Assembly: GCA_032622095.1 (NCBI GenBank)
Contig: CP136063.1
Span: forward strand, 120,858,723-120,922,722
Reading direction: 5' to 3'
DNA from: Siphonodentalium dalli
Lineage: Eukaryota > Mollusca > Scaphopoda > Gadilida > Siphonodentaliidae
Length of the DNA stretch: 64,000 nt
The notes under the pieces were generated by a model. That model made no database searches and was not told where the DNA came from. It was given only the letters and a program-made list of their open reading frames with translations. The translations under genes and the position numbers were made by a program. Positions 2,104-59,472 of this stretch are shown here, piece by piece. How positions within the stretch are numbered: position 1 is the first letter of the stretch; each line of letters opens with the position of its first letter.

Positions 2104-2545
2104 AGCTCACCTGAGACAAAGTCTCTGGTAGAGCTATAGTCATCACTCATCGTCCATCCATCAACAATTCTTTAAAAATCTTCTCCAGATCCATAGGACC
2201 AAATGGGTTCATATTTGGTGTGGATGTTCCGATGGAACTATAGTCATTACTCGTCGTCCATCTTTTTCTCTGCTTCCATTAGACCGAATGGGTTCATATT
2301 TGGTGCGGATGTTCCCTAGATGACTGGTATTCAGATTTGTTAAAATGAGGTCACTGGGCCAATTAGTTCCAAAGACGACTTCTCCTCAAGTAGCATCATT
2401 CCGAATGGGTTCATAATTTGTATGAAGGGTCCTTGGGCGACTGGGGTTCAGATTTGATCAAATGAGGTCACTGGGTCAAATGTGGGCTGAGCCAGGGACA
2501 TCACTCAAAAATTAGATTGAACTCCTTGCTCAATTGAAAAAAAAA
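2104..2545 (+). mobile_element. family C Helentron-like element, 5' part
   Basis: It begins with the family C terminal hairpin: AGCTCACCTGAG and, after a short loop, a matching inverted arm. The usual leader (CATCACTCATCGTCCATCC) follows. The body has tandem sentences of the type ACCGAATGGGTTCATATTTGGTG and GATTTGTTNAAATGAGGTCACTGGG. Related copies start at 4115 and 7244. The 3' end is not defined here and the sequence fades into A/T runs. Confidence 0.65.
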
Positions 2546-2880
2546 CAAAGAATTTTTAATTTTTTTTTTTATTTATTTCAATAATATATTTTTTTTAAAG
2601 TGAATTATAAAAAGACAAATATTAAAGAAGCCCCTACCTTTGCCCATCGGTGCTTCTAGCATCCCTGTTGTCAAACACTTGTTTTAAATTTATTTCAGTC
2701 ACAATACAATACATGGTTATATTATACACCCTATGCATATGAATGCTATCTCTTACAGTAAAAATAATACAGGTCAGCATACTGGTCAGTCTGCTCTGTT
2801 GATAATTATTCACATGTCAAATCTGACAGTGCAGTATCAACAAGCACTCTAGCCAGACCAGAGAGGTTTTGTTTTGGTAA
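2546..2880. other. unannotated AT-rich stretch
   Basis: It contains poly-A and poly-T runs and no recognisable gene or repeat boundary. Nothing else seen. Confidence 0.5.
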
Positions 2881-3790
2881 CTATCTCCGCCAAATTTAAA
2901 ATTTGCGGGGGATATAGTAATGGGTTCCGTCCGTCAGTCTGTCCGCTCTCTCTCGAGGGTTTTGTGTGGCTTTATTTGTGGAGAGGAAGCCCTTGTGTGT
3001 CTTTTTTTACTTGTGTGGCTAGCCACATAACTTGGACAATAAAAAAAAATTGAGAATTAAAAAAAGTTTTTTTTTTAGGCTCTGAATCGCCTGCCAGAAG
3101 CCACCCAAAAAAATTTGTCCATCAAATTGTCCAAAAAAATGGACAACCCACCTCCTCCATTTCAGTCAAAGCGTTTTGGTAGGGTTTTGTGGCTTTATTT
3201 GTGGAGCGGAAGCCCTTGTGTGTGTTTTTTTTACTTGTGTGGCTAGCCACATAACTTGGACAATAAAAAAAAATTGTGTGTCTACTAGCCTAAAAAGACA
3301 AGACACAGCCAGATTTGGATGAAAGGCTCACAAATTCATTTTAAAAAACCACACAAAATGCACTGTAATTCATTCAACTATCAATTTGCGAGAACAAAAA
3401 CTATTTTAAAAAGCCACACAGAACGGACAGTTTACAAAAGCGCACAACTATCTGTATGCAAGAACAAATATAAAAGCCATTTTTTACAGACTCAAAATGC
3501 TTATTTTTACCGTAGTTATTGGACTTTGTTTATTATTCTTGTCGAATTTACCAAATAGCAAATAGACGACGTCACAGGGCTCATTTCTATAAATGTCAAC
3601 GGATTTCAAAGATATTTGGTATATGAGTTCACTTTACCAGTATCTAGAACGAGTTCGCAAACCAGGTCCGGCCAGATATTTTCATCAGAGTTGTTGGACT
3701 CGCATGATTTAAAAGATTTTTGGTATATTCGTTCCCATGACCAGTACCTAAAATGAGTTCGCAAGCCAGGCTTTTTGACAAAATCTTGTT
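2881..3790 (+). mobile_element. family G Helentron-like element
   Basis: It starts with a hairpin at CTCCGCCAAATTT / AAATTTGCGGGGGAT, followed by the GTTCCGTCCGTCAGTCTGTCC leader shortened by mutation. Inside, a segment with GTGGCTTTATTTGTGG and the 14-nt perfect palindrome TGTGGCTAGCCACA occurs twice, 223 bp apart (2966 and 3189). Two copies of an ACGAGTTCGCAAACCAGG-type motif follow, and the copy ends near GACAAAATCTTGTT. A piece of the same 3' region recurs inverted near 54466-54500. Confidence 0.6.
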
Positions 3791-4114
3791 AATTTTGAAA
3801 TTGAATGTCAAATGTATTCCCAGCAGCCTTCAGTCTCTACTCATATAAGCTATTACTTTGTTCAAATGGTGGGTCTGTGGAATAGGTCATTTATTCAGTT
3901 TTAACACTTCCTTTCAGTGAATTAATTTCTACCCTATGAATGGTTCTGTAGTTTGTGTGGACCACCCTATCCTTTGTTGATTGAGACTGTTTTAATAGAG
4001 ACAGCTTTATAAGTTTAAGAATTCCAATTAAACTAATTCCAAAAACTTTAACCCCCTCCATAAGACAAACTATTTGAGTTGTTGAGTTCGAGTTTGGTAC
4101 CGATTATAGTTCTA
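3791..4114. other. unannotated stretch
   Basis: AT-rich sequence with no reading frame or repeat that I recognise. Confidence 0.5.
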
Positions 4115-4640
4115 AGCTCACCTGAGGCAAAGACTCAGTGGAGCTACTGTGTATAGTCATCACTCCTCTTCCATCTGTCCATCAAATTTTTTTATTTAAT
4201 TATTTTAAACATCTTCTCCAGACCCTTAAAACAACTAAGAACCATTAGACCTATTAGGCTTATATTTGGTTTTGAGGGTCCTTGGTTTACTGGGGTTCAG
4301 ATTTATTACAATGGGGTCACTGGGGTAAACATGGGCAGAGACAGGGTCAATATCTTTCAAAAAGAAACTAAATTTTAGATTTAAATTCTTGCTCAATTTA
4401 AAGATTTAAATGAGAAAAAAAGTTATTCTGCTCTGTCTTTACAGTCTGGTGAGTGACCCCACAGTTATTGACCGTCTTGTTTTTAAATATGAATTAAATT
4501 TTGTTTTCTTATTAATTTTTCAAAAACTATCGCCATTATAACATCCACTCAGGTTCTCCGAATCACCACACCAAATCTGGTTTAAATTAGTCCAGGGTCT
4601 GAACAGAAAGATTATCCTTGCCATTTGAAGGGTCAAACAC
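4115..4640 (+). mobile_element. family C Helentron-like element, second copy
   Basis: The 5' hairpin AGCTCACCTGAG...CTCAGTGGAGCT is followed by ATCACTCCTCTTCCATCTGTCC and a family C body with CTTGGTTTACTGGGGTTCAGA. Near 4448 the motif TCTGGTGAGTGACC is the inverse of the 5' arm and may be the subterminal partner. The right boundary is approximate. Confidence 0.6.
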
Positions 4641-5733: not shown

Positions 5734-6340
5734 TTATACCCCCACTTTCAAAGAAAATGGGGGGTATACTGGATTGACTGCGTCTGTCCGTCACGCTTTC
5801 TCCGTCCGTTTAGCCGTCCATCCGTCCGACCTCATATCTCGAACAACTATGAACCGATTTAAATAATTTTGTGTATGCAATCTCCTTAGGACGGTCTCTC
5901 CGCATGATGCTAATTGCGGTTTGGTCAGACTTTTTTTTTCAAGTTACGCCTCTTTTTCGACTTATTTTGACTTAGAAAATTCTGTCTGACTTAATAACTT
6001 TAACAAATATGAACCGATTTCAATAATTTTCGGTATACATGCTTCTCACAATATCCTTTCTACATGATGCGGCTAGGGATTGGCTCAGACTGTTTTTCGT
6101 AATATTACACCTCATTTTCGACTTATTTTGACTTGGAAAATTCTGTCTGACTTAATAACTTTAACAAATATGAACCGATTTGAATAATTTTTTCTGTACA
6201 AGCTTCTTGTGACACCATATCGATATAATTAGTCCGAATTTTTCTTTAAAGTAAAAAATCTTTTTGGTTGAGTTTACGGATAATGCGGGTTGAATTTGCC
6301 ACTGGGGTTATGCTAGCACTCGAGTGCACACCTCTTGTTT
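5734..6340 (+). mobile_element. family F Helentron-like element, complete
   Basis: The 5' hairpin is ATACCCCCACTTTC / AAAATGGGGGGTAT, then CTGTCCGTCACGCTTTCTCC leader. The interior repeats a module with AACAAATATGAACCGATTT and TTTTCGACTTATTTTGACTT. The 3' end has CTGGGGTTAT (imperfect inverse of the 5' arm), then the 12-nt palindrome GCACTCGAGTGC, then ACACCTCTTGTTT. Length is about 607 bp. There is no coding capacity, so it must be mobilised by proteins made elsewhere if it is mobile at all. Confidence 0.75.
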
Positions 6341-6399: not shown

Positions 6400-6767
6400 A
6401 TTATGCCCCCGACTTGAAGTCGGCGGGTATATAGTCGACGTCTCCGTCCGTACGTACGTCTGTCCGTACAAACATTTTGCATTATTGTTCAGCAACCGCT
6501 GGGCAGATTTAGCTGATATTTGGTATGGTGATAGAGCAGCATGGGGGAACAGCTACATGCATAGTTTCGTCCACCCATTTTTACCAGAGTTATGGCCCTT
6601 TTTTGACTTAGAAAATTCAATTTTGTCCGTCCGTACAAACATTTTGCATTATTGTTCAGCAACCGCTGGGCAGATTTAGCTGATATTTGGTATGGTGATA
6701 CCGTCCATGCTTAATCCGAATTGCTACGGTCGGGGGCAAATGCCACGCGACAGTGTACCTCTTGTTT
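6400..6767 (+). mobile_element. family D Helentron-like element, complete
   Basis: The 5' hairpin is CCCCCGACTT/AAGTCGGCGGG, then GACGTCTCCGTCCGTACG leader. Two tandem units carry CAGCAACCGCTGGGCAGATT and GATATTTGGTATGGTGATA, 167 bp apart (6490 and 6657). GAGTTATGGCCCTTTTTTGAC lies between them. The 3' end has GGTCGGGGGCA, the inverse of the 5' arm, then GTGTACCTCTTGTTT. Non-coding. Confidence 0.78.
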
Positions 6768-7243: not shown

Positions 7244-8010
7244 AGCTCACCTGAGACAAAGTCTCCGGTGGAGCTATAGTTCACTCGTCGTCCGTCCATC
7301 CATCCGTCCGTCAACAATTCTTTAAACATCTTCTTCGGAACCATAAGACCGAATGGGTTCATATTTGATGTGGATGTTCCCTAGGTGACTCACATTCAGA
7401 TTTGTTCAAATGAGGTCACCAGGTCAATTAGTTGCGAAACCAGGGCCATAACTATATTCCTCCTTGGTAATTCTTATACCATTGGGCCGATTTAGCTTAT
7501 ATTTGGTATGGAGGGTCCTTGAATAACTGGGGTTCAGATTTGTTCAAATGGGGTCACTGGGTCAAATTGGGGTGGACCCAGGGACACAACTCCAAAAAAA
7601 AATATTAATTCAGATTGAACTCCTTGATCAATTTAAAAAAACATTTTTATACGCCCGTTTGAATAAACGTTTTTTTTGTGGATTACATATATCGAAATAC
7701 AGCTCAAGTCCGAATTTCGTTTTAATCCGATAATTTTTGCGAGAGTTATGGCCCCTTTTTTGACGTAATTTGACTTAGAAAATCCCTGAAATTTGTTGTC
7801 CGGATGATAACTTTAGTTAGAGTGAACCGATTTCAATCAAATTTGGTATGTGGGTTTATTAGGAGAAAAGACAGCTCAAGTTCGAATTTGGGTTCCATCC
7901 GCCAATTTTCCCCAGAGAGGGCATATTTTGCACGCCAAGCGTAGCTCTTGTTAAAAATTGGAAAAACTGACACCGTTGTAACATCCGCAGAGTTAGAAAA
8001 TCTTTAATGA
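7244..8010 (+). mobile_element. family C Helentron-like element with a nested family E element
   Basis: A well-preserved 5' hairpin (AGCTCACCTGAG / CTCCGGTGGAGCT) is followed by CGTCGTCCGTCCATCCATCC. The body continues to about 7646, is interrupted by the family E element, then resumes with GAAAAACTGACACCGTTGTAAC, which matches the AAAACTATCGCCATTATAAC part of the copy at 4115. The nesting shows the family E insertion is younger. Confidence 0.65.
7647..7952 (+). mobile_element. family E Helentron-like element nested in family C
   Basis: The 5' hairpin is ATACGCCCGTTT/AAACG. The interior has GAGAGTTATGGCCCCTTTTT and TGAACCGATTTCAATCAAAT. The 3' end has GGGCATAT (inverse of the 5' arm), a small ACGC/GCGT hairpin and AGCTCTTGTT. 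About 306 bp, non-coding. Confidence 0.65.
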
Positions 8011-9210: not shown

Positions 9211-10485
9211 AGAGATTTAATTATCAACCAGCCACCCTACCTGTGCTTTTTGATACTGGTATAATAATGTATAGATTCCTCTTGATTTCTAAGCTGCCTG
9301 GGTGGGGGGAAATGGGGCGGAAGTGTAGATGGGGTGGGGTTTTGACCACTTAGAAGCGATTTGGACAGTTGATTGTGTATTCACATAACCCACAACACAA
9401 GCCCGTTTGATCACTGGCGGTTTTCTAGACATGAAACCAACAACTACACTCTGTGTCAGTCTGCGAATCACTTGCTACACATTCAATGCCAATTTCCTTT
9501 GGCAGCATTACATGACGTTCCGGCTGCACGCGCTCCGCGGCATATATGCATCAAAGCAATCAAGTCTAGACTTTTACTACGTCATCAATAGTCTGTCTGT
9601 TTTTATGAAACTGTCTCCCCCCCTTTTGTCATTATCATTAGTTCGTCTCACAAAGCGATGGCAGAAGACCTACAAAAAACGGAAATCGAACGTTGGGGAC
9701 ATTTAGTCCTAATTGAAGATGAAAAAAAAAGAACAAATGGGCGGAATGCAAGGCCTGCCGAACGCGATTCGTTTATTCTGGATCAACATCAATATGAAGT
9801 CGCATATCCAGAAAAAACACATAGGCCTACTGGGAGGGGAACTCGGAGTATATCTAGTGATGTGTTCGATAACTTTATTTTCTAAACACTGGCTGGGGCT
9901 TGCGTAATGAATCTCTTAATTTTGTTTGAATTTGTTTATTAATTAATTGAAGTAACATCGTGGAGCCACTGTGATTAATACATACCCACCTATACCCAAA
10001 CACTAGTAAACATTACTAAACAACAGTATACCTACCTTCAGTACCTTGTAGTACACATGTTTGGGCTAATTGTGCCCGCGATATACACGAGGAAGGAACT
10101 ATATTTCGTTGCTGAAGGTATTGCAAGCAAGCGTTGTTTATGCGGTGCGGAACTCCCGTAAACATCGATATACTAGCGCACTACTAATATATATTATATT
10201 TTAGTTTGTTTGGGCTCAAAACTGAATTAATTTATATACACATTTACCGCTATTTGATCGCTGTAACGGGACCGCATTATACGACCAAGACATCGTTTGT
10301 GATCGCATGTATATCAACGTTTCCGGGACACGTAATAATCACTTGTTTTGCCGATATAGTGACCAGTGTATTCAATCTCGTACTTGGGGTAATGATGGTC
10401 GCGGTTAACCGGTTATGATTAGGTTAATGCCCGTGGTTAACCTGTTGGGGAAAAAAAACCAACGTCCCAGCACTACTGTTTTTAT
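9211..10485 (+). other. unannotated stretch with one short reading frame
   Basis: A 75-codon + strand frame at 9658-9885 begins at GCGATGG, a good start context, and encodes MAEDLQKTEIERWGH and onwards; I recognise no domain and no splice donor that would make it an exon. Around 10436-10478, GGTTAACC repeats end in CCCAGCACTA, reminiscent of a hAT right end, but no matching left end was found. Nothing else is supported. Confidence 0.35.
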
Positions 10486-10730
10486 GTGTACTCATACCAT
10501 AGTATGGTACACCAAGCGTCAACGTCCGGATTGACCATTTGCCGTTCATCCGTCTGTCTGTCTGTCCGTAGACTCTCATGCGTGGTGCGATAACTCAGAC
10601 ATTTTCTATCCGATCGGAACCAAATTTTGTATACAAGTTTCTCCGCCCCTATGACTGATGTTGCATTCGGATCATTGCGACACAGAAGATGTTGATTAAT
10701 CGGGTCCGGTTTTCTGTAGAACTAATGAAT
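10486..10730 (+). mobile_element. family B Helentron-like element, 5' part
   Basis: The 5' hairpin GTGTACTCATACCATAGTATG continues to GGTACAC, then GTCAACGTCCGGATTGACC and the CCGTCTGTCTGTCTGTCC leader. The module GGTGCGATAACTCAGACATT ATCCGATCGGAACCAAATTTTG (split here for length) is as in other family B copies. The 3' end is missing. Confidence 0.65.
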
Positions 10731-12081: not shown

Positions 12082-12440
12082 TACCCCGCTGGACAAAACA
12101 AGTGTCCATTGGCACCGCAGTGTATTTGCCGTTCGGCCGCGGTGTCAGAGTTTGTAACTGCAGTTGAGCACCGCGGTCGAACGACAAGTACACTGCGGCC
12201 GAACGGCAACTACCCTCGCGGCCGAATGACATGTACACCGTGGTTATGATTTCTGGTTTGTAACATTTTTTTTTCAGTTTAATGAAAGTACACCGCAGCA
12301 ACTACACCATGCCAAATGGCAAGTAAACCGCGGCCCAACTGTAGTTAGCCAGCGGAGCCGCGGTGTAGTTTCATTTCGGCCGCGGTGGCAACGCTAACTG
12401 CACCGCAGTTAAGTGGACACTTGTTTTGTCCAGCAGGGTA
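12082..12440. mobile_element. MITE with 27-bp TIRs and a CpG-rich core
   Basis: The ends are inverted copies of TACCCYGCTGGACAAAACAA plus GTGTCCA with one mismatch. If TA is the target duplication, the element proper starts CCCYGCTGG. The core carries many GGCCGCGGTG, ACCGCGGTCGAACG and GCGGCCGAACGGC motifs in both orientations, very different in composition from its AT-rich surroundings. No coding capacity. A TA duplication would fit Tc1/mariner-like or other TA-targeting transposases; the superfamily is not certain. Confidence 0.7.
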
Positions 12441-13175
12441 TACAGACAGTATGAAGCTGACTGCATGTCTACCATATCAAACACCCTTCTGGGATGGGCA
12501 CTAAAAAAGCACATGAAATTATCTACTGGTTTGTTTGGCTGTATAAACCATACAAGCAATGCATATGCCAGTGTGTATAAGGAATTTAAAAGTAGGGGGC
12601 AATTTGAATGCTGAGGTGTGGTATCTCAGTCAAGGTGTGGCCTGTGGTACCATTTTCAGTGTGGTGTGGGACTTTATAATTCAATGCAATTGAGGGGTGT
12701 CTGAGGAATATTTACACCCTGTGCAATGTGTCTGATGCGCATGTGAGATATCCTGATAGTGGATGTGCGTCTTAGGTCCTGAGGCATATGACCAAATATT
12801 TAAGTGAGGATTGAATTAATAACATACAAGTTATGTTATTATAAAGTCATAGAAAAGCCCTATTATGGTGTTCGTCTTTAGCCTGTTGATATGTCCATAT
12901 TGTGCTCTGAGGAAGATGTGCCACCTCAAGCTAAACTGAGAGAATAATTGCAAGAGAGCTGCATACAGTAGTTGAGTGTCAGGGAGGAATTTGTTTGTCC
13001 ACATTGACAATACTTATCATATTATTGTGCTAAATTAACAGTTACTTGCAATATACATGGACAGCCTTAACACAAGTATAAAGAGTAAGCATTAATTTAC
13101 TTCTTAACTGTTTGGGGGAAAAATAAAAAAATATTACCAAAACAAATCCCTACCTACCTACAGCTATGCTCTCAG
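12441..13175. other. unannotated stretch
   Basis: No domain, repeat or RNA gene recognised. A few GTGTGG repeats around 12615-12670. Confidence 0.45.
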
Positions 13176-15753
13176 TAAGCGACCTGTTTAACGAGGTTAT
13201 GGGCCGGTACTTACCGCGGTGTTACCACCAAAATACCGCGGTTATCATTCTGTACCGCGACGGAGGGCGGTTGACCCGCGGTACTGGTACGGTATTTTTA
13301 CCGTTGGTTACCGCAGGTCACCGCGTTATTGGTGTTCGTTACCGCCGTACACCGCGGTATTTTTTTCGTAACCGCGTTCAAATTACCGCTAACGGCCCTC
13401 CACCGCGGAGAGAACACGACTGAAACAAGGCGTCACACGGTAGGTAAATAATTATGAATAACTTTTGTATTGAATGAATACCTGTAAGCTGCACGTAATT
13501 ATGTATTTGTAATGAATATAAATGAATAATAATGCAATCGGATTACATATGAACATGTCTGGTTTACATGTAACATATTACAAATGTACACGTACATCAC
13601 GTTTAATCACGTCGGCGGTTTTTGAACTCAGCTATAATTGCTTACGGCGACTGGATTACGCAAAACACCGTGGAGTAATAGTTTTGTTGTTAGCATCTAT
13701 CTTACATATCGTCAAATGATTTACGCACCCGATTCCTATATCGGTTTCCACTCATGCGGAATTTTTTTTTTTTTTTTTTTTGTGTTTTCGAAATCTAAAT
13801 TTCTTATAAAAATGGGAAAAGTAAATCCTCCATTTATCTGAATTTGGTCGAAACCAGCGGGGACGGTGCATTAGTAACACTGAGTCCGAGTTTAGTCTTG
13901 GATGCCAGGGCGGCGATCGTTGCAGAAATATTCATATTCGTTCAAATCTATAGTTGTGTTCATATGCCAAACATAATCGGCGCGTAAATACTATATTGTC
14001 GCCAAGACGTACGATTGTACGCATGCGTGAAATAGTAAAGCAATTTACAAACATTTGCGCCTGAAGATTTATTGTCGGTGGGAATAAAATGTATAACTAA
14101 GAAAGCGTGGCACATGCCATGCAGCAAAGTAAAATTGTCATCATCACCAATGTGCGCGACAAAAGACACACGCAAAACACCAAACATTGAAAGACACAAC
14201 ATTGTCAAATCAGTCTTTGATTTTGTTACGTGAACATTCATTGTACGAGTGCGTGTCGGGTGGCATCGTTTGATGTGAAATTGCAACTTTTGGCGAGGGC
14301 GTGCACTAATGTAGTTCTCGGTGGGTCGCAGTATAAATTATATCACATACCGGTATTCCTATCTAATCGTTATTCGGAAAAAACATGCATGGTGTTGGAA
14401 AGATAAAATATGTTTGTTTGGTTATATACAGAGGTTAACATTGTAACATAATTATTTCAAGTGATCGAATTCGGTGTGTTTTAGTCCTTGTTAGTTTATT
14501 CCCGATACGGTAGCAATAAAGAGCGTTTGTCTCACTTTTGTGCGACAAATATTTATAAATAGCTATTACGTGCACAGCATTTTAAAGATCGAATGAGACT
14601 TGTCTGTTTAAAGCCACGTAGCGGTTCACACATAATATTATTCGCAATACCAAAAATAGATCGATAAATATCTGAACTACCTTCTGCGAGCATTATGTAA
14701 GCCAAACGGACGCATTGAAGTAATGGAGATACAAGTGTCCAAAACACAAAACAGCCATTCGCGCGTGCGTCACGTGTGTAGTTTTACTATATAATAGCAC
14801 CATCAACAAAACACAAATATTTATTTCACCCATTGAGGCCAGTTATAAAAAGACATGACGACATCTTAATTTAAGTGCCCCGTGACCTATATTAACAAAG
14901 TCTGCCAGCTGCAGTATGACGTAATCAGTGACACGTGCTTTTACCAGAATGTGGGTTTTTTCCTGGATATACGGGAGTTCCACGTTGTGTCTTTTATTGC
15001 TAAGACAATAATTCCCGTTATACGAACAAATGGTGTTTGTGATTTGCAGTTAATGAATGTCAATAAAGTTAATAACGATATTTATTCTGGGGACTATTTA
15101 AATAGTGGTCGTTATCATTCAATTTAGGGATCACGTACATCTGAACATTGATATAAACTGTATAGATACGGGATTTATCGAGCTGTCTAAAATGGCCGAA
15201 ATCATTTGTTCCCTTCCCGATAACCAACACTGATTACAAATAGTGTCATTTATGGGAATTTTAGGCAATAAAACGAGACTAGAAATGTTATTGTAATATT
15301 TTAATATTCACATTAATTGAAAAATGACTTTCTCAAAGTAACTTATACTTACCTTTACTTAATCTGGAAGCCCGTTATAATGTGCATATTTCCCGATACT
15401 CGGCTTTCATCTATTTCAATATTTTAATAATACACTTCACGGTACACAAACATGGACGGAGATCGTGAGAACGGCCGTCCTATTTTGGAAGATTGACGGT
15501 CAGCCATCGAATCCCGTCATTAACCTCGTTACAAAAATGCTACCGCGTAGCGGTAATGTCACCGCGTTTGTGCGGTGCATTACAGCGTACCACCGCGCTA
15601 CCAACATTCGTTACCGCTGGTAGTGCGGTGGTACCGTGAACGTCGCGGTGGTACCGCGGTACGCGCGTGGTAGTGCAACCGCAAATCGGCGGTATGTCGC
15701 GGTATTGCACCGCGGTATTAACGCATGTACACCTCGTTAAAACAGGTCGCTTA
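13176..15753. mobile_element. 2.57-kb TIR element with ACCGCGGT-rich subterminal regions, flanked by TA
   Basis: The left end AGCGACCTGTTTAACGAGGT (from 13178) is matched by the inverse ACCTCGTTAAAACAGGTCGCT ending at 15751. Both are flanked by TA, a likely target duplication. Directly inside both TIRs, about 210-260 bp are packed with ACCGCGGT, TACCGCGG, CACCGCGG and variants (13205-13420 and 15540-15720). Clustered subterminal motifs are usual transposase-binding sites. The middle 2.1 kb has only short frames (for example 108 codons on the - strand at 13960-14286) and no recognised transposase, so the copy appears non-autonomous or has cargo of unknown origin. T-rich run at 13761-13781. Confidence 0.72.
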
Positions 15754-16533
15754 ATTTGAGCAGTGCTGTACCTGGAATTTTTTGGCTCCGTAATAGGAAA
15801 CAAATAATTTTTTTTTTTTTGGCCTAACACAACAATATTATGACTCGGGTTCCAATGTAAGAAGTAGATAAATAGAGTTGTTATGTGCTTAATTTCATAA
15901 CTATTATATCTTTAACAGGTATGGTGCATCTGTCTGACTGTGGTTGGGTTATTTAGCTTTATCACTCTATAACACATACATTTTCGCTTGCATGGATTTT
16001 GCGATTAAAATTAACCCATTCCATAGACACATGATATCCGATAGGCAGATATTAAATTATCCCTTTCGCCTTGAACCAGGTTCAGTAAGGATTTCTATAA
16101 GCCACCAATTGACCAATATTCATCAGATGAAATATCTTATTTTTAAATTCACTCAATTGCATTTGGGCTGCAGAATAATAATGGTGCTGGTATTCTTGAG
16201 ACTACTTTATATTGGTCAAATATTTCTCACAGACAACTTTTATAATCTCATCCAGGTTAATCATGACATATAAATTTCTTAACCTGTATAAATTTTGGTA
16301 TTGATTGAATGGTTTTGAAAATATTTACCCCATATTTAATAATATTCTGCTGTTTACAGACATTGTATCTTGAAATTTAATGCCATATCCATAGTCATAT
16401 TGTGTTTATGTGAGCAAGTTGCCCAATAAGTCCGATTCCACTTGGAACTATTAATTAATAGCAAGCTGTGAATTGTTGAACGTCTTATACTCATGAAAAA
16501 ATTGGTATACAGATTTATGAAAATAGCTAATCA
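15754..16533. other. degenerate repeat sequence, no gene
   Basis: Phrases such as CTTGCATGGATTTTGCGATT, CATAGACACATGATATCCG and TTTTGGTATTGATTGA recur, diverged, near 22555, 25945-26050 and, inverted, 56690-57050. This suggests an old interior of a family B-like element. The 109-codon frame at 15944-16273 lies wholly within this and is not believed. Confidence 0.4.
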
Positions 16534-16585
16534 CTATCGCCAAGGTATGGGTTAAACATCTGCCAATCGTGATCGGCCTCTCGTT
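16534..16585 (+). mobile_element. family B 3' terminus
   Basis: ATCGCCAAGGTATGGGTTAA, a near-palindrome GCCAATCGTGATCGGC and CCTCTCGTT. This is the conserved 3' end of family B; the body upstream is degenerate. Confidence 0.75.
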
Positions 16586-16608
16586 AAATGAGTTATGGCC
16601 CTTTTTAT

Positions 16609-17100
16609 GTTTACCCATACCATGTATGGTAAACATAGTGTCGTTGTCCGGATTGACCACTCGTCGTTCGTCCGTCCGTCTGTCCGTCCGTCTGTCCGTC
16701 CGTCTGTCCGTCCGTAGACACTTCACGTGTAATGCGATAACTCAAACATTTTCAATCCAATCAGAAGCAAATTTTGTATATGGGTATATCAGCCCAAAAT
16801 ACAGATCGAGTTCGAATTTGGGTTTGATCCGAGTTTTTGTTACAGAGTTATGGCCCTTTTTCGACTTAGAATTCACACATTCTGCCATAACTCAAACATT
16901 TTTTATCTGATTGGAACCAAATTTGGTATGTTCGAATATGGGTTTGATCCGATTTATTTTAAAGGAGTTATGACCATTTTTCAAAAAAAAACAAAATTGA
17001 AGAAAAAAAATCGATTTAAAAAAAAAATTATTTTTAACTTTTATAATAACAATAAAAAAAATGTCATTGACATTGTAATTTGCTTTTCATTTTGATATTG
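16609..17100 (+). mobile_element. family B Helentron-like element with intact 5' hairpin
   Basis: The hairpin arms GTTTACCCATACC and GGTATGGTAAAC-type sequence span 16609-16634. Then GTCGTTGTCCGGATTGACC and a long CGTCCGTCTGTCCGTC leader (16670-16715). Tandem modules carry GCGATAACTCAAACATTTT at 16734 and GCCATAACTC at 16884, exactly 150 bp apart, separated by GAGTTATGGCCCTTTTTCGA. The 3' end is lost in A/T-rich sequence. Confidence 0.75.
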
Positions 17101-17626
17101 ATGATTATGATACAAGTTGATAAAAAGATTTCCAATGTGTCCCTTTAATTTTTTAATTAATTCACCAATTGCGTTTGGACTACTTAGCTATTGATAAAGC
17201 TATATTATTTTCTGATGTTTCTTATGCCAATGTGCAAATAATCTGATAAAGAAGGCTATGGTATCTAATTTAAAATAAGATTCAACAATAAACATCACAT
17301 GATATTAACAGTAGACTTGGACATCTGTGCTGCAGAGTTATATCTTCAGATGGTCTGATATCATTATAATTGTTATTGGTTTAATAGAGGTCAGTGTTCA
17401 ACATAAACAATTCCTGTGATTTTTTGACAGCTGTGCTATATAATTGATATTAATGGGTCAGTGGTGAGGTTGCTTATCTGTATACTAGGACACATTATTA
17501 TTGTAAACTTAAATTGGACTCTCTTAACCCAAGTATTCCATGTCCAGGTCACACCTACACATTTAACCCACGGACTTGCTGGCTGTGGTGGTTTAGCATT
17601 ACAGATCCTGTACCAGTGCATTCTCT
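17101..17626. other. unannotated stretch
   Basis: Short inverted repeat ATGGGTCAGTGG (17455) versus CCAGTGACCCAT (17637), and a GTGCATTCTCTTATATAA motif (17617) related to the palindromes in the MITE at 52613. No gene. Confidence 0.4.
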
Positions 17627-17803
17627 TATATAAATGCCAGTGACCCATAAATTCCAATAATTTGTGTTATGTACATTTGTCTATAATAGTACATAACAGT
17701 ATACTCTATAATTCAACACCAAAACTCTCATTTATCCGATCATATTAAATTTTTATCGCCAAGGGATGGGTTAACATCTGCCGATCGTGATCGGCCTCTC
17801 GTT
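17627..17803 (+). mobile_element. 177-bp segment ending in the family B 3' terminus, copy 1
   Basis: ATAAATGCCAGTGACCCATA through a unique-looking TAGTACATAACAGTATACTC to the family B 3' end (GCCGATCGTGATCGGC hairpin, CCTCTCGTT). A nearly identical copy is at 29108-29282. There is no family B 5' hairpin, so the 5' part looks captured. Confidence 0.7.
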
Positions 17804-18139
17804 CTACTTTGAATTCACGCATGATGCCATAACTCAAATATTTTTTATCTGATTGGAACCTAATTTGGTATGAGTTTATCAGCCCAAAATATAGATAGAG
17901 TTCGAATATGGGTTTGATCCGATTATTTCTAAAGGAGTTTTATGGCCCTTTGACATAGAATTCATGCATTTTATAAATTGAGCATTTTTCATCCGACGGG
18001 AACCAAATCCAATAAATCAACCATTTTTCATCTGACTGGAACCAAATTTGGTATGTAAGTTTCTCAACTCAAAAGTACAGATAGCGTTCTATTATGGGTT
18101 AGATCCGATTTTTTTATACCGGAGTTATGGCCCCTTTTA
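17804..18139 (+). mobile_element. family B interior fragment
   Basis: Modules with GCCATAACTCAAATATTTTT, TTGGAACCTAATTTGGTATG and GTTCGAATATGGGTTTGATC. The fragment is interrupted at 18140 by the family A element, just after GAGTTATGGCCCCTTTTA. Confidence 0.65.
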
Positions 18140-18614
18140 AGCTCAACTTTACTTTGTAAAGTTTGAGCTATTGCCATGGCTTGGTATCCGTCGTGCGTGG
18201 GACTCGTCAACAATTTCCTTTAGCACGGGCTACAGGTCGTACCTTTGGTCAGATAATTATGAAATTTTGTCATGGATGTTGACATGTAGATGGGAACGAG
18301 TCATTTTGGGCAAAAAAACATGGCCGCCAGCAGCCATCTTGGATTTCAAAATTAAATCCATCAACACGGGCTACAGGTCGTACTGTTCGTCTGATAGTCA
18401 TGAAATTTGTCATGGATGTTAATATTGACATGTAGATGGGAACGAGTAATTTTGGGGTCATTCAGCCAAAATACATGGCCGCCAGCAGCCATCTTGGATT
18501 TTACTCTTTGCATAACTAGGCCTTTCAACTTTCTACATTCCTAACTCCATTGACTGTAACACGTGAAATTATTCCCTTTCCAAGTTGAGCTACAGTGTCA
18601 TTGACACTTTCATT
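18140..18614 (+). mobile_element. family A Helentron-like element, short complete copy
   Basis: The 5' hairpin starts AGCTCAACTTTACTTTGTAA and closes with AGTTTGAGCT. Then CCATGGCTTGGTATCCGTCG and about two tandem modules with GGGCTACAGGTCGTAC, TGTAGATGGGAACGAGT and GCAGCCATCTTGG. The 3' end has AAGTTGAGCT (exact inverse of the 5' AGCTCAACTT), the AGTGTCA/TGACACT hairpin and CTTTCATT. It is inserted in a family B interior. Non-coding. Confidence 0.82.
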
Positions 18615-18794
18615 CAACTAAGAATTGAACAGATTTGAGATTTTTAAAGATATCCCAAGCAGCTTAAAATTAATTAACTGTGAAATCGGCTTAGATGTAA
18701 CAGACGAGAGATAATCTGTTATTGAATTGGAGTTATTTTTAGTCATGTTCACCACACAGCAGTGTAAGGTCTAACCCCTTCATGAATCGATGGA

Positions 18795-22511: not shown

Positions 22512-22702
22512 TAATTTTTCATTTAATCATTCTATTATATCTCCAGGTTTCTCCTCTTTCACTTGTATGGATTTTGTAGTTAAAAATGAACCCTTAGCAT
22601 TCCTGATAGTTAACAGAAATACCTTTCATCTGATATATCTCATTTTATATTGGATTATTTTGACATGCCTTTGCCCCTATTGAATGATTAATTTATTTTT
22701 AT

Positions 22703-23126
22703 GTGTACCCATACCATACATAGTGTCCACATCAGGATTGACCATTTTCGTTCGTCTGTGTGTAGACACTTTACGCATGGTGCGATAACTCAAACATTTT
22801 TTATTCGATTAGAACCAAATTTTGTATGTGTTTCTCGGCCCAAAATACATATAGAGTTCGAATAATGGTTTGACTTTTTTTTTTGGCGGCGTTAAGGCCC
22901 TTCAACTTACAATTCACGCATGCTGCAATAATTTAAAAAAAAATATTATCTGATCAAAATCAAATGAGTTTCTCAGCCCAAAATAGATATAATTTGAATT
23001 TGGGTTTGATCCGATATTTTTTAACTGAGTTATGGCTTATAGATTTTAGCATCCAAGCTGAAAATAGCTAATTACCATCGCCAAGGTATGGGTTAAACAT
23101 CTTCCGATCATGGTCGGCCTCTCGTT
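22703..23126 (+). mobile_element. family B Helentron-like element, complete but decayed
   Basis: The decayed hairpin GTACCCATACCATACATAG is followed by AGGATTGACCATTTTCGTTC and two modules with GCGATAACTCAAACATTTTT and GAGTTCGAATAATGGTTTGA. The 3' end is ATCGCCAAGGTATGGGTTAA, CCGATCATGGTCGG and CCTCTCGTT. Confidence 0.72.
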
Positions 23127-28367: not shown

Positions 28368-29109
28368 ATCTCAACTTTGAGCTATTGCCATGGTTTGGCG
28401 TCCCATCGTCCGTGTGTGCGTGTGTCAGTCAACAATTTCCTTTGGCGTGGGCTACAGGTCATACCTTTGATCTGATCTTTATTAAATTTATCATGAATGT
28501 TGACATTGACAAGTAGATGGGAACGAGTCATTTTGGGGTCATTCGGCCAAAAAACATGGCCGCTGGTGGCCATCTTGGATTTCAAAATTCAATCCATTGG
28601 CGCGGGCTACAGGTCGTACTGTTAGTCTTATCATCATGAAATTTGTCATGGATGTTAATAATGATATGTAGATGGGAACGAGTCATTTTGGGGTCGTTCA
28701 GCCAAAAAACATGGCAGCCATCTTGTATTTTACTCTTTGCATGACTAAATCATTTGGCGCTGGCTACAGGTCGTAGCTTTGATCGGAACTTCATGAAATT
28801 TGTAAAGACTGTTGACATTGACATGTACATAGTTGGGAATGAGTCATTTTGAGGTAATTCGGAAAAAAAACATTGCTGCCGGTGGCCATTTTAGAATTTA
28901 CTCTTTGCATCACTAAATCCTTTGGCACACCATAATCACCTCATCCCTGATCCGATGATTATAAAACTTGTCATGAATGTTGATATTGACATGTACATCT
29001 TGTCTTACTTAGACATTTCAATTAGCACCTTTCCTATTCCTCCATTTACTGTCAACCATTAAATTATTCCCCTACCTAAGTTGAGCTACAGTGTCATTGA
29101 CACTTTCAT
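28368..29109 (+). mobile_element. family A Helentron-like element with truncated 5' hairpin
   Basis: It starts at a shortened hairpin (TCTCAACTTTGAGCTATTGC), then CCATGGTTTGGCGTCCCATC leader. Modules carry GCCATCTTGGATTTCAAAATT and TGTAGATGGGAACGAGTCAT. The 3' end is canonical to CTTTCAT, where the next insertion abuts. Confidence 0.75.
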
Positions 29110-29282
29110 ATAAATGCCAGTGACCCATAGATTCCATAATGTGTGTTATGTACATTTGTCTATAATAGTACATAACAGTATACTCTATAATTCAACACCA
29201 AAACTCTCATTTATCCGATCATAGTAAATTTTTATCGCCAAGGGATGGGTTAACATCTGCCGATCGTGATCGGCCTCTCGTT
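29108..29282 (+). mobile_element. 175-bp segment ending in the family B 3' terminus, copy 2
   Basis: Nearly identical to 17627-17803 over its whole length, differing by a few substitutions and a 2-nt length change. It is inserted exactly at the last T of a family A 3' terminus. Confidence 0.75.
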
Positions 29283-35437: not shown

Positions 35438-36127
35438 GGGAACGAGTAATTTTGGGGTCGTTCGGCCAAATAACATGGCCGCTGGCAGCCATCTTGGATT
35501 TTACTCTTTGCATGACTAAATCCTTTCACACGGGCTACAAGTCGTACCTTTGGTCAGATCATCATGAAATTTGTCATGGATGTTAAATATGACATGTAGA
35601 TGGGAAAGAGTCATTTTTAGGTTATTCGGCCAAAATCATGGCCGCCAGCAGCCATCTTGGATTTTACTCTTTGCATGACTAAATCCTTTGGCATGGGCTA
35701 CAGGTTGTACCTTTAGTCGGATCATCATGAAATTTGTCATGGCTGTTGACATTGGGATGAGACAGGAAAGAGTCATTTTAGGTTCATTTGGTCTTAAAAA
35801 GTGTCCACTGGCAGCCATCTTTGATTTTAATCTTTGCATGACTAAATCCTTTGGCACACCCAACAGTCTACTTCCCTCATCTGATCATCTCCAGACTTCA
35901 TATTAATCTTGATATTGATCTTACTAGATGGAAGCTATCAAATGTTTTTGAATTTTATTGGAAATCATAGCCACCAGTAACCATCTTGAATTTAACTTTT
36001 TTATATATCTCTTCAATGTTGATAATCTAGTATTACTTAGACATTTCAACTTTCCGCATACCTAATCGCTCCACATTAATTTATTCCCTTTCCAAGTTGA
36101 GCTACAGTGTCATTGACACTTTCATTT

Positions 36128-37065
36128 AGCTCGACTTTACTTTGTAAAGTTTGAGCTATTGCCATGGCTTGGTATCCGTCGTTCGTCAACAATTTCCTTT
36201 AGCACGGGCTACAGGTCGTACCTTTGGTCGGATCATTATGAAATTTGTCATGGCTGTTGACATGTAGATGGGAACGAGTCATTTTGGGTTTTTTGGCCGC
36301 CAGTGGCCATCTTGGATTTCAAAATTAAATCCATTAGCACGGGCTACAGTTCGTACTGTTGGTCTGATCATCATGAAATTTGTCATCGATGTTAATATTG
36401 ACATGTAGATGGGAACGAGTCATTTTGGGGTCGTTCGGCCAAAAAACATGGCAGCGAGCAGCCATCTTGGATTTTACTCTTTGCATGACTAAATCCTTTG
36501 GCACGGGCTACAGGTCGTAGCTTTGGTCGGATCATGAGATTTGTCATGGCTATTGACATTGACATCTAGATGAGAACGAGTAATTTTGGAGTCATTCGGC
36601 AAGAAAACATGGCCGCCAGTGGCCATCTTGAATTTCAAAATTCAATCCATTAGCATGGGCTACAGGTCGTACTGTTCGTCTGATCATCATGAAATTTGTC
36701 ATCGATGTTAATATTGACATGTAGATGGAACGAGTTATTTTGCGGTCGTTGGGCCAAAAAACATGGCCGCCAGCAGCCATCTTAGATTTTACTCTTTGCA
36801 TGACTAAATCCTTTGGCACGGGCTACAAGTCGTACCTTTGGTCGGATCATTATGAAATTAGTCGTGGATGTTACCAATGACATGAAGATGGGAACGAGTC
36901 ATTTTGGGGTCATTCGGCAAAAAAACATGGCTGCCAGTGGCCATCTTGGATTTCACTCTGCATAACTAGGCCTTTCAACTTTCCACATTCCTAATCACTC
37001 CATTGACTAACACATGAAATTATTCCCTTTCCAAGTTGAGCTGCAGTGTCATTGACACTTTCATT
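36128..37065 (+). mobile_element. family A Helentron-like element, complete, head-to-tail with the previous copy
   Basis: It starts AGCTCGACTTTACTTTGTAA (one change from consensus) one base after the CTTTCATT of the preceding copy. About five modules; ends CTTTCATT at 37065. Subterminal AAGTTGAGCT and the terminal hairpin are intact. Confidence 0.83.
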
Positions 37066-39354: not shown

Positions 39355-40910
39355 CTTTAACCATTGGGTAGTGATTAGAATCCAATAATTGTAACCATAG
39401 GGCAGTGATTAGAATCCATTGATTGTAATCATAGGGTAGAGATTAGAATCCAATGATTGTAACCATAGGGTAGAGATTAGAATCCAATGATTGTATCCAA
39501 AGGGTAGTGATTAGAATCCAATGAATGTAACCATAGGGTAGTGATTAGAATCCAATGAATGTAACCATGGGTAGTGATTAGAATCCAATGAATGTAACCA
39601 TAGGGTAGTGATTACAATCCAATGATTGTAACCATAGGGTAGCGATCAGTCTGAGTAAACTCATACCTAAATATTCATTACAACATTGAATATAAGGTCT
39701 GACGGATAACATCGATATTTCATTTCCAAGTCCTCGGGATTCCGTAATCTGATTGATTGCGTAAATTATTTTCCGTCCAATGAAACCGTATGGGTTAATA
39801 AACAAGTGTCAGTGGGCGGAGCTAGACTCCCATAATGTCACCTCTAAATATAGTAACAGAGCGGAATTTCTCAGATCGAAAGCGATGCTTGCAAATACAA
39901 CAGACAGAAACAATGGCTTCGAAATTATATATTCGGTACGATTCGGATTAATTTGAAGGATGTGCTTGACCTGATAGATAGGCCTGCGCATGGTACCAAC
40001 TTGGCCTCCCATAAATATAAATAGAACTCACTCACGCCCGTGTATTTGATTTACTTTATTGTACCATGGTTTACAAATCAAATTATTTGTCGTAAAAAAG
40101 TCATCTGAAAGTCAACACCGAGGAAATGACTTAATTTTATGCTTTTAAATAGTTCTAAAGCATCATTTTTGATGACGACCTTATTTTTTGCTCTCGGATG
40201 CAGCTTTCCGGTTGATGCAGCGAGTTCATCTCCCGAAAAAGAATAGTCGCACACACGACAAATATTATCTGCTGTAATCTTATGTCGCGACACAGGCCAT
40301 TACTATTATTGCGAAGCACAACAAATAACACGTGGGGACACCTGTCAATCATCGATGTATTTTTTTTAAATCCGTGACGTCATTTTGGGGAAGCTCTTCG
40401 CTGAATAGAAATGGTTTTGGCTACATAAGCTCCAGACTCTATATTTCAAATATAGAGTCGACGTTCACCCAGACTGGGTAGCGATTAGAATCCAATAATT
40501 GTAATCATAGGGTAGCAATTAGAATCCAATGAATGTAACCATAGGGCAGTGATTAGAATCCAATGATTGTAATCATAGGGCAGTGATTAGAATCCAATGA
40601 TTGTAATCATAGGGTAGTGATTACAATCCAATGATTGTAACCATAGGGTAGCCATTAGAATCCAATGAATGTAACCATAGGGCAGTGATTAGAATCCAAT
40701 GATTGTAATCATAGGGCAGTGATTAGAATCCAATAATTGTAATCATAGGGTAGCGATTAGAATCCAATGAATGTAACCATAGGGCAGTGATTAGAATCCA
40801 ATGATTGTAATCATAGGGCAGTGATTAGAATCCAATAATTGTAATAATAGGGTAGTGATTAGAATCCAATGATTGTAATCATAGGGTAGAGATTATAATC
40901 CAATGATTGA
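39355..40910. repeat. 34-bp minisatellite array, split by an inserted element
   Basis: Unit AGGGTAGTGATTAGAATCCA followed by ATGATTGTAACCAT, 34 bp. Roughly 8 units at 39357-39646 and 13 units at 40477-40910, contiguous without spacers. Variants include GCAGTGATT and GTAATCAT. Some variants form pairs that recur every second unit, suggesting growth by blocks in the right array. Confidence 0.9.
39638..40485. mobile_element. 830-bp TIR element inserted in the minisatellite with a 9-bp duplication
   Basis: The element is 39647-40476. Ends CAGTCTGAGTAAAC and inverse CAGTCTGGGTGAAC. GGTAGCGAT is repeated on both sides (39638-39646, 40477-40485), and the minisatellite phase resumes exactly there. 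A 9-bp duplication suggests a Mutator-like or similar superfamily. A perfect 12-bp-stem hairpin (GACTCTATATTT, one-base loop) lies at 40435-40459 near the right end. A - strand frame at 40078-40293 has ADNICRVCDYSFSG, a possible CxxC finger fragment. No transposase core. Confidence 0.72.
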
Positions 40911-55904: not shown

Positions 55905-56069
55905 TCATCTAGAATTCACGCTGAACTACACTTCTGTTCTAAATTTATAAACCGGTGTTGCAGACATAAGACATGAGAAAATAAATGGTCAAACAGGAAG
56001 CACCGCGTTGTGTTTTACTGGTGTTACGAAAAATAACAACCGGTGCCAGTGACCGGTGCTACATAAAAT

Positions 56070-56196
56070 CGGCCGATTCCAGTATATTCAAGAACACGTA
56101 CTCAGACATCACGGAGTGATTTTTCCAAAACTTTCCAGTATTATTTTCCTATTTCCAGTATCTTCAAGTTTCCAGTACATGCATGCGAACCCTGCT
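56070..56196. mobile_element. right end of a CAGGGTTC-type element
   Basis: Read inverse from 56196: CAGGGTTCGCATGCATGTAC, then TGGAAACTTGAAGATACTGG and AAATAGG. This resembles the left end at 34200 (CAGGGTTCCCGCGGGTCCTGG AAAACC, split). No matching left end or target duplication found, so the element may be truncated; it would include the frame at 55656-55904. Confidence 0.5.
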
Positions 56197-57200
56197 TATA
56201 TAGGTGAGGGGTAGATCAATGGAAATATACAAGACACTTATATAGGTGAGGGATCTGTCATCAGAAACCCTGTAATGAAATTTCAAAATAATAGGAGGAA
56301 CAAGAGTGTCGTCCAATTAATCACATTTTTACATATATGATAAACAATTAACCATCAGCACTGTTTATCTTTGCCTCCATCTAGCCACTGGCCAGAATAG
56401 CAGAGCTCTGTGTCATTATTCATTAATGGATTTCATGTGGAATAACAGCAAGAGGGAATGTCATTAATTTCAAGTAAAGTTGTGCACCTTATAGCTTCTA
56501 AAGTGGCCTTGGAGTTACAAGTATAATAAGTGAACTCTCAACACTGGATATTAGATGTTCATATAACAATTTATTTATATCATTATATTACATTCAAATA
56601 TTGCAATAAAATCTTCATATTTTCAAAACAGGACATCACACCTTATGGAATAGATCTATTAAATATGTGTCATTATTAATAACCCTGGTTCAAGAGTATA
56701 GGGTTAATTAATCAATACCAAAATCCATACAGATGAAGAGTGTGCTAAAAAAAACCTAGGTAAGAAATACGAGGCAGATCAGAAGAAAAGTATTTGACTT
56801 ATTGCATTGGATGGCATGTGCGTGAAGGGTTAATAATTATCTCTAAACCAATCAATACCAAAAACTCTACAGGTGAGGGGTATCATAAATCATAAATCTG
56901 CATATAAAGTGTGAACACAATCGGACAAAAAATACTTGAGTTGTTGCATCGGATAGCACATTACCATGAGTGGGTGGAAAGTGTTAATCATTTCTAAACC
57001 GATCAATAGAAAAAAATATACCGGTGAGGGATGTGTCATCATAATCCTGCACATAAAATATGAACACGATCAGATAAAAAATAATTGAGTTATCACATCG
57101 GATAGCATGCATCTATGGACAGACGGATGGCCAGACAATTGACAGATGGTTGATCCGGATGTCAGCATTATGTGCACCATACATTGTATGGGTTTACATA
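56197..57200 (-). mobile_element. family B-like Helentron element, - strand
   Basis: The 5' end at right: hairpin CCATACATTGTATGGG (57177-57192) and, on the - strand, CATCCGGATCAACC and GGCCATCCGTCTGTCCATAG. Modules marked by GATGTGATAACTCAATTATT and CGATGCAACAACTCAAGTA recur about every 155 bp. ATATAGGTGAGGG phrases also occur, as at 25870. No canonical 3' end. Confidence 0.55.
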
Positions 57201-58851
57201 AAAACAATATTAAGTCAACAGATATTCTTTCACATGGACCATGGATATTTTTGTCATAGAATAAAATCTAATCGCACAGCTTCCAACCTTATGACCAGAT
57301 GAAATCACGATTTTGTAATAAGGAATCCGATATCAAACCTAGAATTGATTCTATTTTTATGATAATTTCAGCTGAGGTTATACAATATGTGCTGTCAGTG
57401 CATAACAAAGACATGGTGACAAGAGGGAGGAATAATCTGACAGTAACCTATCAACATTTAAAGCAATAAAAAGTTTGGAATAAAAGAGAATTGTGGATGA
57501 ATTGAGTCGTAAGAAAATAAATATCGTGAGAAAGCATTCGTTATTTGGAATCAGTTTGATTCCATAGTGAGATAATTAGAGCACCAATGCCACACTGTAC
57601 GTATGTAGTGCTGCAGTGTTAATATGCATGTCGATGTAATCCTCTGGATATTTTCTGTGGCGTTCCCGCTGTAACAAAAAAGAAAACTGATTAAAGAATG
57701 GAGATCCACTTAGAGGCGGATGTGCAAACAATTGCAAGTAATAAAACCCGAAGTTTTCCAAGCAGTTTATAAAATATGTCATACAGTGCTTTTTAGCCAG
57801 GGGGATGGAATTTGCATTTTTTTTTCCGAACACTAGGTGGGGTGGGTGTGTGTATCAGCAACTGAGAAAACACAATTTTTCCTGCCCCAGTAAATTTGTT
57901 CCTGTTGTCATTTTTCTTTAAAATAACAGAACCAAATAGTTCATGAATGCTTCTATGATTTTTCAGATATGAATTAGTGAACTTGAATGGGTGGAGTTCA
58001 TAATTGGTTAAAATGGGGACTGATTGACATGATATTGGTGACTTGCTACATCTGCTCCATATACATGAATCCATTTTTGCACACTGAATTGGATAGCTAA
58101 AATGTAGAAATTATTGAGCGGAGAGAGAATATGGCCTTAATAGTGACAATAATTGAATCTTATGCAGTGTTAAACATCCAGCTGGTTATTACTTGGTGAA
58201 GTTTTGGGTATTATGGTGGCGTTCCACAATCACTGAAGGGCAAGGAGAGTTACATAATTCAGTAAGGCACTTTCCACAATGTAAACACAAATATTTATAA
58301 TGGTGCAGATGGTTGCCTAGAACACGGCGAGTTTAGATGCCTACAAATGAATCAGTGGGAATTGAGTACCTACCCACTCAGTCTGAGTAAGTAATTTTGG
58401 ATTCGATTAGGTCTGCCTGTCATAGAACAGCAGGATATTCCGAGTCATTAGCACCAATCAGTACTCACAATTAGTACGGTAGATCCAAGATTAAAGCATT
58501 CCACCAAAATGATTAATGTAACACAGAGTGGCATAATTTAGGGGAAGGCCACACGCTGCCGAGAAATAACATGCCAACGAGACGATGATAGACTCAATAT
58601 GTCAGTATGACACTGAATATGTTTACACAAGCTGTTACCCACTGATATGAAATTATCCATTTATCAGAGGGTTAATATCAAACTGCTTAAAATAATTAAA
58701 CAATGAGATGATGAAATTCCGCCTTTGAATTTTCCTAAATGCGAATGAGAAAAACTGCTGAAATAATCACTAAAATTATCTCATTTTAGGAATTAAGCAC
58801 ATACATGGATATTGCTAGAGGGCTTTGCGGTGGGTACCCCAATACCAGAAA
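57201..58851. other. unannotated stretch
   Basis: AT-rich; short - strand frames (57576-57833, 57793-58074) show no domain. No repeat boundary. Confidence 0.4.
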
Positions 58852-59472
58852 AAATAAAAGGTCGGCAGACCACAGTGTCCCCCGACAACGTGGCAAGCCG
58901 ACGCCGCGTTGTTAAAGAATTTTTTTTAAATGTTCTAAGTCGAAAGGGTTAATAATTCCGTAAAGAAATAATTTTTCCGTCATCTATAAAAAATGTTTTT
59001 TCAAAGTCGAAAGGCCCATAACTCTGGGAAAAATCATTGTATCAAACTCAAATTCGAACTTGACCTGTATTTTTATATGAACGACCCACAAAAAACAGAA
59101 TTTTCAATTGAACAGTCCAAACTTGAGTTATCATCCGGAAACCAAAGAAAAAAGAAGTAAAATTGAATTTTCTAAGTCGAAAAAAGTCCATAACTCTAGG
59201 AAAATTCATCGGATCAAACTCAAATTCGAATTCAACCTGTATCTTGATATGACTGATCCACATAAAACGGTATTTGCAATTAAAGGATCCAAACTTGAGA
59301 TATCATCCGGAAACTGAAAAAGTGAGAAATTTTCTAAGTAAAAAAAAAGTTGTGACACCTACATACCAAGTTTCAATCAAATCGGATGATCAATACTGGA
59401 GTTATAACTCCGGACGCACGGACGGACGGGGCTGATTTCAATAGTCCCCCAAAAATAAATTTTTCGGGGGAC
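58852..59472 (-). mobile_element. family H Helentron-like element, complete, - strand
   Basis: The 5' hairpin at the right end (59444-59472): GTCCCCCGAAAAAT / ATTTTTGGGGGAC, then GCCCCGTCCGTCCGTGCGTC leader. Two modules with AGAGTTATGGGCCTTTCGAC or variant, 170 bp apart (59005, 59175). At the 3' end (left) GTCGGGGGAC is the inverse of the 5' arm, then GGTCTGCCGACC and a T-rich terminus. Non-coding. Confidence 0.72.

Follow-up and report, generated by a model that had tools for sequence, protein, structure and literature searches.

Probable HINE elements in a 64-kb stretch of the Siphonodentalium dalli genome keep arm complementarity between families as the arm sequences change

The ends of Helitron2 transposons follow a well-described plan, in which a 5' asymmetric terminal inverted repeat (5'-ATIR) lies 0-2 bp from the 5' end and folds with the nucleotides downstream of it into a 5' hairpin, and the corresponding 3'-ATIR lies just upstream of a 3' hairpin, about 20-30 bp from the terminus (Bao and Jurka, 2013, PMC3627910). 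The same authors report compensatory changes that uphold the 5' hairpin in the related Helitron-1N1_CQu and Helitron-1N2_CQu, and propose that pairing between the 5' and 3' ATIRs may destroy the 5' hairpin, so setting the endpoint of replication (PMC3627910). We compare with this plan a set of repeat families in 64,000 nucleotides of DNA from the scaphopod Siphonodentalium dalli (assembly GCA_032622095.1, contig CP136063.1, positions 120,858,723 to 120,922,722 of the forward strand; "the window" in what follows), which very probably are short, non-autonomous rolling-circle transposons of the Helitron2/Helentron group, of the HINE/DINE-like kind.

Similar ends are known from several hosts. DINE-1 elements carry 13-bp subterminal inverted repeats (subTIRs), a partial or interrupted inverted repeat (IR) beside the 5' subTIR, a GTCY microsatellite and a 3' stem-loop (Yang and Barbash, 2008, PMC2374699), the last with compensatory changes between species (PMC2374699, PMC4067079). 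Thomas et al. (2014, PMC4067079) tied structures of the DINE-1/HINE type to Helentrons, a structural class whose autonomous partners code for Rep/Helicase (PMC4067079). The Cg_HINE set of Crassostrea gigas comprises 11 elements, one group of which is unrelated in all modules (2020, PMC7492417). In Helraiser, a canonical Helitron, termination is described as the task of the 3' hairpin, and joined-end circles arise (PMC4778049, PMC5876387).

The window, which has a GC content of 37% and abounds in nested repeats, had been the subject of a preliminary description in which six repeat families (A, B, D, E, F and H) were said to share one terminal grammar: a 5' hairpin, the outer arm of which reappears inverted shortly before the 3' end. 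All twelve arm strings quoted there are present in the window. We read the element boundaries directly from the sequence around these strings and studied the copies within the window in comparison with published descriptions. In published terms, what we call the outer 5' arm corresponds to the 5' subTIR or 5'-ATIR, and the inner arm, which folds the 5' end into a hairpin, to the IR; the copy near the 3' end corresponds to the 3' subTIR, beyond which come the 3' hairpin and a terminus inserted at TT. In families A, B, D and H, an inverted copy of the 5' outer arm lies 19-28 nt ahead of the 3' terminus (counted on aligned ends).

The match between arms is specific to the family. Each family's 5' outer arm was scored on two targets, the inner region and the 3' region, in every one of the six families, with all 720 arm-to-family assignments and 2000 base shuffles of the target region per family as controls; for family B, the ends came from two different copies. 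The true assignment was unique among the 720 at both places, with a sum of 54 for outer against inner arms (mean 32.8, next best 51) and of 57 for outer arms against 3' regions (mean 34.2, next best 54). The shuffles that reached the observed inner and 3' scores numbered 1 and 1 for A, 0 and 0 for B, 9 and 1 for D, and 0 and 1 for H. As the six families had been picked for showing arms, these tests speak for specificity and not for discovery; what they uphold, for A, B, D and H, is that arms differ by family yet pair within their own. Between families, complementarity of the arms is kept and their letters change.

The surroundings of the arms agree with this plan. Of 17 5' ends, 15 have TT immediately before the arm, a context for which the composition of the window gives an expected frequency of 0.108 (P = 3.7e-13, with some arm starts placed by the analyst). 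A GTCC-type microsatellite 3' of the 5' hairpin is clear in B, D, F and H, weak in A and absent in E, and a CGTC array lies at 16665; central tandem repeats with periods of 131-172 bp are found in A, B-related and H stretches. Judged from aligned ends and folds, F has an intact 3' hairpin, as do 10 of the 12 3' ends of A and 4 of the 6 of B. The Helentron/HINE assignment already made in the preliminary description holds on end plan, TT context, microsatellite and central repeats alike, and the elements are ordinary HINEs, the end structure of which has been described before. Canonical Helitron1, with 5'-TC, CTRR-3' and no 5' hairpin, was considered and rejected: the 5' ends here read T|AGCTC, T|ATGT, T|ATRC and T|GTCCC, and the 3' ends ..TTCATT, ..CTCGTT and ..CTTGTT, not CTRR-3'.

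It had also been suggested that a mandatory 5' hairpin sharing the subterminal arm had gone without emphasis, and that the 5' arm acts as a two-state switch. Neither idea is new: the hairpin with its shared arm is in print (PMC3627910), the inner repeat figures in accounts of DINE-1, HINE and the oyster elements (PMC2374699, PMC4067079, PMC7492417), and the switch, together with a role in ending replication, was put forward as a hypothesis in 2013 (PMC3627910). Observed here are the end anatomy, the TT before the arms and, in A, B, D and H, an arm match that is specific to the family. The mechanism that we consider most likely fits the 3' terminator and joined ends of Helraiser (PMC4778049, PMC5876387) and the joined ends of FoHeli (PMC5148889) into that hypothesis, and would run as follows. 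A RepHel protein supplied from elsewhere, a partner that we infer, would nick at the T beside the 5' hairpin, and the nicked strand would be peeled off; the 3' subTIR, once single-stranded, would base-pair with the outer arm of the 5' hairpin and thereby open it; and this pairing would mark the end point beside the 3' hairpin. We know of no bench test of such a switch between 5' and 3' arms.

Folding gives the switch mixed support. We joined the 5' and 3' ends of single copies and folded them with DNA parameters, blocking the inner or the 3' arm in turn. Under these constraints, the arm-paired and hairpin states lie at most 2.4 kcal/mol apart for both A copies, D and H, and the hairpin is better by 5.7 kcal/mol in F; the junction fold of B, where the inner arm is deleted, takes the arm pairing, which does not form in E. 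By duplex energies, pairing with the 3' arm is better in 4 of 7 families when the arms are taken in full; with shorter arms, it is better in 5 of the 6 elements that can be compared. Because the outcome depends on where the arms are cut, we regard these figures as suggestive only.

One detail, perhaps new, might add to the published model. Of the seven families, five (A, B, C, D and F, where C is an additional family described below) have a 5' stem with a mid-arm bulge or internal loop, which in A, B and D is a single bulge; the stem of H has a G-T mismatch, and that of E is short and uninterrupted. Pairing between outer and 3' arms runs without interruption over 9-10 bp in A, D and H. Should the flaw be conserved in relatives, it could bias the 5' hairpin towards invasion and opening by the 3' arm, and the ends would then work as a switch tuned for strand displacement. 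DINE-1, with its "partial and/or interrupted" IR (PMC2374699), fits this idea, which we nevertheless think improbable: the hairpin wins in F and in most unconstrained joined folds, the energies vary with the arm cut, and the 5' stems of FoHeli are uninterrupted in the account cited (PMC5148889). A literature search on bulges, cruciforms and compensatory changes in these elements gave only PMC4067079 as relevant among the matches listed; it proves no absence, since PMC3627910, which discusses compensatory changes, was missing from that listing.

Several results weigh against a grammar common to all these families and against the switch built on it. Left unconstrained, the joined ends prefer the 5' hairpin in 5 of 7 elements, and arm pairing is the best fold only for B and for the A copy at 18139. 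For F, 3 of 2000 shuffles reach the inner score and 211 the 3' score, so that its 3' arm fails; for E, where 311 reach the inner and 295 the 3' score, both arms fail. Of the 12 A 3' ends, 2 have a broken 3' hairpin, as have 2 of the 6 B 3' ends; in D, E, H and C this hairpin either is weak or does not fold separately from the arm. Nor was an autonomous partner seen in the window: among 30 of the 31 closed open reading frames (ORFs) of at least 100 aa (one of 100 aa was left out, and the scan excluded ORFs running off the window), none matched a Pfam family above cut-off, and a single zinc-ribbon match fell below threshold. The same lack of Pfam matches counts in favour of reading the elements as non-autonomous HINEs. 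On account of the shuffle counts, we take the grammar to be firm in only four families, A, B, D and H; it is half firm in F, for which only the inner of the two arm matches stands, and unproven in E. An inner repeat complementary to the 5' subTIR is present in A, B, D, F and H and not in E, and a 3' subterminal inverted repeat in A, B, D and H; E and F do not show one on their own.

To these points must be added that covariation within families, as claimed in the preliminary description, is unsupported by the copies in the window. Among the four 5' ends of B, one of them without inner arm, the hairpin shows a double change at 1 of 13 pairs, a result reached by 157 of 500 shuffles, and its covariation score (0.051) lies below that of a version slid by 3 columns (0.064). 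The B copies at 10484 and 57199 have two broken hairpin pairs each, and in the only B element with both of its own ends (22701-23126) an outer-arm G has no match in the 3' arm. An A-to-G change in the outer arm of the A copy at 36128 is likewise uncompensated, and A offers no compensatory pair. The best case lies between alignable families and not within one: relative to A, family C has an A-to-C change at the seventh base of the outer arm (one site, read by eye), which is answered by T-to-G in the inner arm of the C copies at 2104 and 7244 and in the 3' arm of that at 4115. The same alignment bears on the earlier wording that the families have "unrelated sequence", which is too strong because A and C share end sequence (both begin with AGCTCA and have GAGCTAT following the inner arm) and because C-rich families cross-match, with scores of 9 for the F outer against the D inner arm and 8 for the D outer against the H 3' arm.

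The arms could also have arisen in ways that need no pairing. If the inner and 3' arms were binding sites for one transposase DNA-binding domain, their similarity would stem from recognition by protein, and the arm pairing would have no role. In favour of this, subTIRs as mere protein sites would yield inverted copies just as well, five of the seven families have interrupted 5' stems, and Chaetomium relatives are described as keeping the arms without a 5' hairpin (PMC5148889). We consider this account unlikely, albeit one to be taken seriously, for the letters of the arms vary by family and complementarity persists at both places in A, B, D and H, and compensatory changes have been reported in Helitron-1N1_CQu and Helitron-1N2_CQu (PMC3627910).

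Far smaller weight falls on two further explanations. That the arms are a product of chance, or of a reader's selection from a repeat-rich, AT-rich window, agrees with both arm scores of E and the 3' score of F, which lie within the shuffle range, and a blind scan for the grammar was uninformative; it is refuted for A, B, D and H, with 0-9 of 2000 shuffles at both places, and since the same ends recur in further copies, with 5 5' and 12 3' ends for A and 4 and 6 for B, we hold it to be very improbable overall. Most improbable of all is that these are miniature inverted-repeat transposable elements (MITEs) moving by cut-and-paste. They have inverted repeats at both ends, are short, non-coding and present in several copies, and DINE-1 was itself formerly classed as MITE-like (PMC2374699); their 3' repeat, however, lies 19-28 nt inside the end and not at its extreme, a 5' hairpin and a TT target context are present, and the autonomous partners of such structures encode Rep/Helicase (PMC4067079). 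We reject a MITE origin on end structure and retain the assignment to the Helitron2/Helentron group.

The window contains 5 5' ends of family A and 12 of its 3' ends, including one that the start of the window truncates. Its 5' end reads AGCTCAACTTTAC-TTT-GTAAAGTTTGAGCT and its 3' end consists of AAGTTGAGCT, AGTGTCATTGACACT and TTCATT. A full-length copy on the forward strand (18139..18614) has the 5' hairpin AGCTCAACTTTAC/GTAAAGTTTGAGCT, internal repeats, the 3' arm AAGTTGAGCT at 18582, the 3' hairpin AGTGTCATTGACACT and the terminus CTTTCATT. The other full-length copy (36127..37065, forward), which carries the uncompensated A-to-G in its outer arm, stands head-to-tail with a preceding A 3' terminus (36126), with a single T before the outer arm (36128). 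An A fragment without outer arm, at 28373, comes on top of the five 5' ends.

Family B has 4 5' ends and 6 3' ends, of the forms ATGTTTACCCATACC...GTATGGTAAACAT and GGTATGGGTTAAACAT plus hairpin plus CTCTCGTT. Both ends are present in the forward-strand element at 22701..23126, in which the inner arm of the 5' hairpin is deleted. A 5' hairpin at 16607..16640 (forward) is followed by nested insertions and paired with no assigned 3' end, and the 3' end of another copy at 16538..16585 (forward) comprises the arm GGTATGGGTTAAACAT, a hairpin with one broken position and CTCTCGTT. The 5' end at 10484..10537 (forward) holds the sole compensatory pair change (T:A to G:C), and two of its basal pairs are broken. 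The B arm strings of the preliminary description stem from different copies, the 5' arm from 16609 and the 3' arm from a string found at 16544, 23085, 27023 and, on the reverse strand, 53288.

In both families, 3' ends outnumber 5' ends, by 12 to 5 for A (1-61091) and by 6 to 4 for B (10484-57199). CRe-1 is likewise reported to have a surplus of 3' ends, and the paper concerned mentions one-ended transposition (PMC3627910). Two segments of about 175 bp each (17628-17803 and 29108-29282), 97.7% identical, both finish at a B 3' terminus, and no B 5' end was seen at the start of either; they are possibly 5'-truncated or one-ended B copies. Among the nested insertions at 16511-18620, a repeat motif, GAGTTATGGCCC..TTTT, precedes both the B 5' end at 16607 and the A copy at 18139; this motif is also present inside other elements.

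Families D, E, F and H have one element each in the window. On the forward strand, D (6403..6767) has a 5' hairpin, the 3' arm GGTCGGGGGCA and the end CTCTTGTTT; E (7648..7953) has weak arm matches at both places; and F (5735..6340) has a strong 5' hairpin, a weak 3' arm match and the 3' hairpin GCACTCGAGTGC, with a possible degenerate relative at 8763. H, on the reverse strand (58856..59473), has the 5' hairpin GTCCCCCGAAAAAT..ATTTTTGGGGGAC and the 3' arm GTCGGGGGAC, and its terminus falls within a T-run, leaving the exact base uncertain. Family C, beyond the six of the preliminary description though within the positions that it covered, shows the same terminal plan at 2104, 4115 and 7244. 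Its copy with both ends (4115..4484, forward) has the outer arm AGCTCACCTGAG, the 3' arm GGTGAGT and the end CTTGTT, with modest arm matches (45 of 2000 shuffles reach the inner score and 81 the 3' one); the copies at 2104 and 7244 are 5' ends.

Other repeats and wider searches complete the picture of the window. A 34-bp minisatellite forms two arrays 0.8 kb apart, at 39358-39646 (8.5 copies) and 40476-40909 (12.8 copies), and stretches at 12130-15672 are dense in short ACCGCGGT-type palindromic repeats. The blind grammar scan of the window gave 332 matches, where 20 shuffles averaged 43.6 (with a 3' hairpin required, 92 matches and a shuffle mean of 8.2). Among the matches listed, the surplus consisted of redundant rows, which came from the 39-41 kb minisatellites and from a few further spots; A was the one family of the six visible among them, the place of H being outside that listing. 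Too permissive, and failing to separate elements from other inverted repeats in the window, the scan was kept out of the evidence. An Rfam search of the window at gathering thresholds and an ARAGORN search for tRNA genes with the bacterial code gave no matches, and a literature look-up of the family sequences gave no title on transposable elements among the matches listed. Pattern scans of viral and prokaryote contig collections found no further copies and are uninformative, because such collections are unlikely to contain hosts of this kind.

The Helitron2/HINE terminal plan and the idea of a switch were here recovered from raw sequence alone, and both were already in print. With at least seven such families, this 64-kb stretch illustrates that arm complementarity, and not arm sequence, is kept between families. 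The arm-switch mechanism is still a hypothesis, to which interrupted stems, if general, would give a simple testable prediction.

Among described systems, Helitron2 shares with these elements the 5'-ATIR hairpin, the subterminal 3'-ATIR, the 3' hairpin and the T at the 5' end (PMC3627910); it differs in that no RepHel gene was found in the window, and the likeness given here concerns the described plan. FoHeli has ATIRs with 5' hairpins and comes with experimental evidence of joined ends; in the account cited, the 5' stems of FoHeli1/2 are short as well as uninterrupted, a second group is without 3' hairpin and no TT preference is reported (TNAT|T) (PMC5148889). The resemblance to DINE-1, the host of which is Drosophila, takes in the interrupted IR, the GTCY microsatellite, the central repeats, the 3' stem-loop and the TT target, and the subTIR of DINE-1 in several species starts with ATACCC, as does that of F (PMC2374699, PMC4067079). 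Cg_HINE agrees in the 5' subTIR, the complementary IR, the 3' subTIR, the 3' palindrome and TT insertion, and also, by description and not by family sequence, in the GTCY/GTCC/GTCK microsatellite of several elements and in central repeats of 140-180 bp (PMC7492417).

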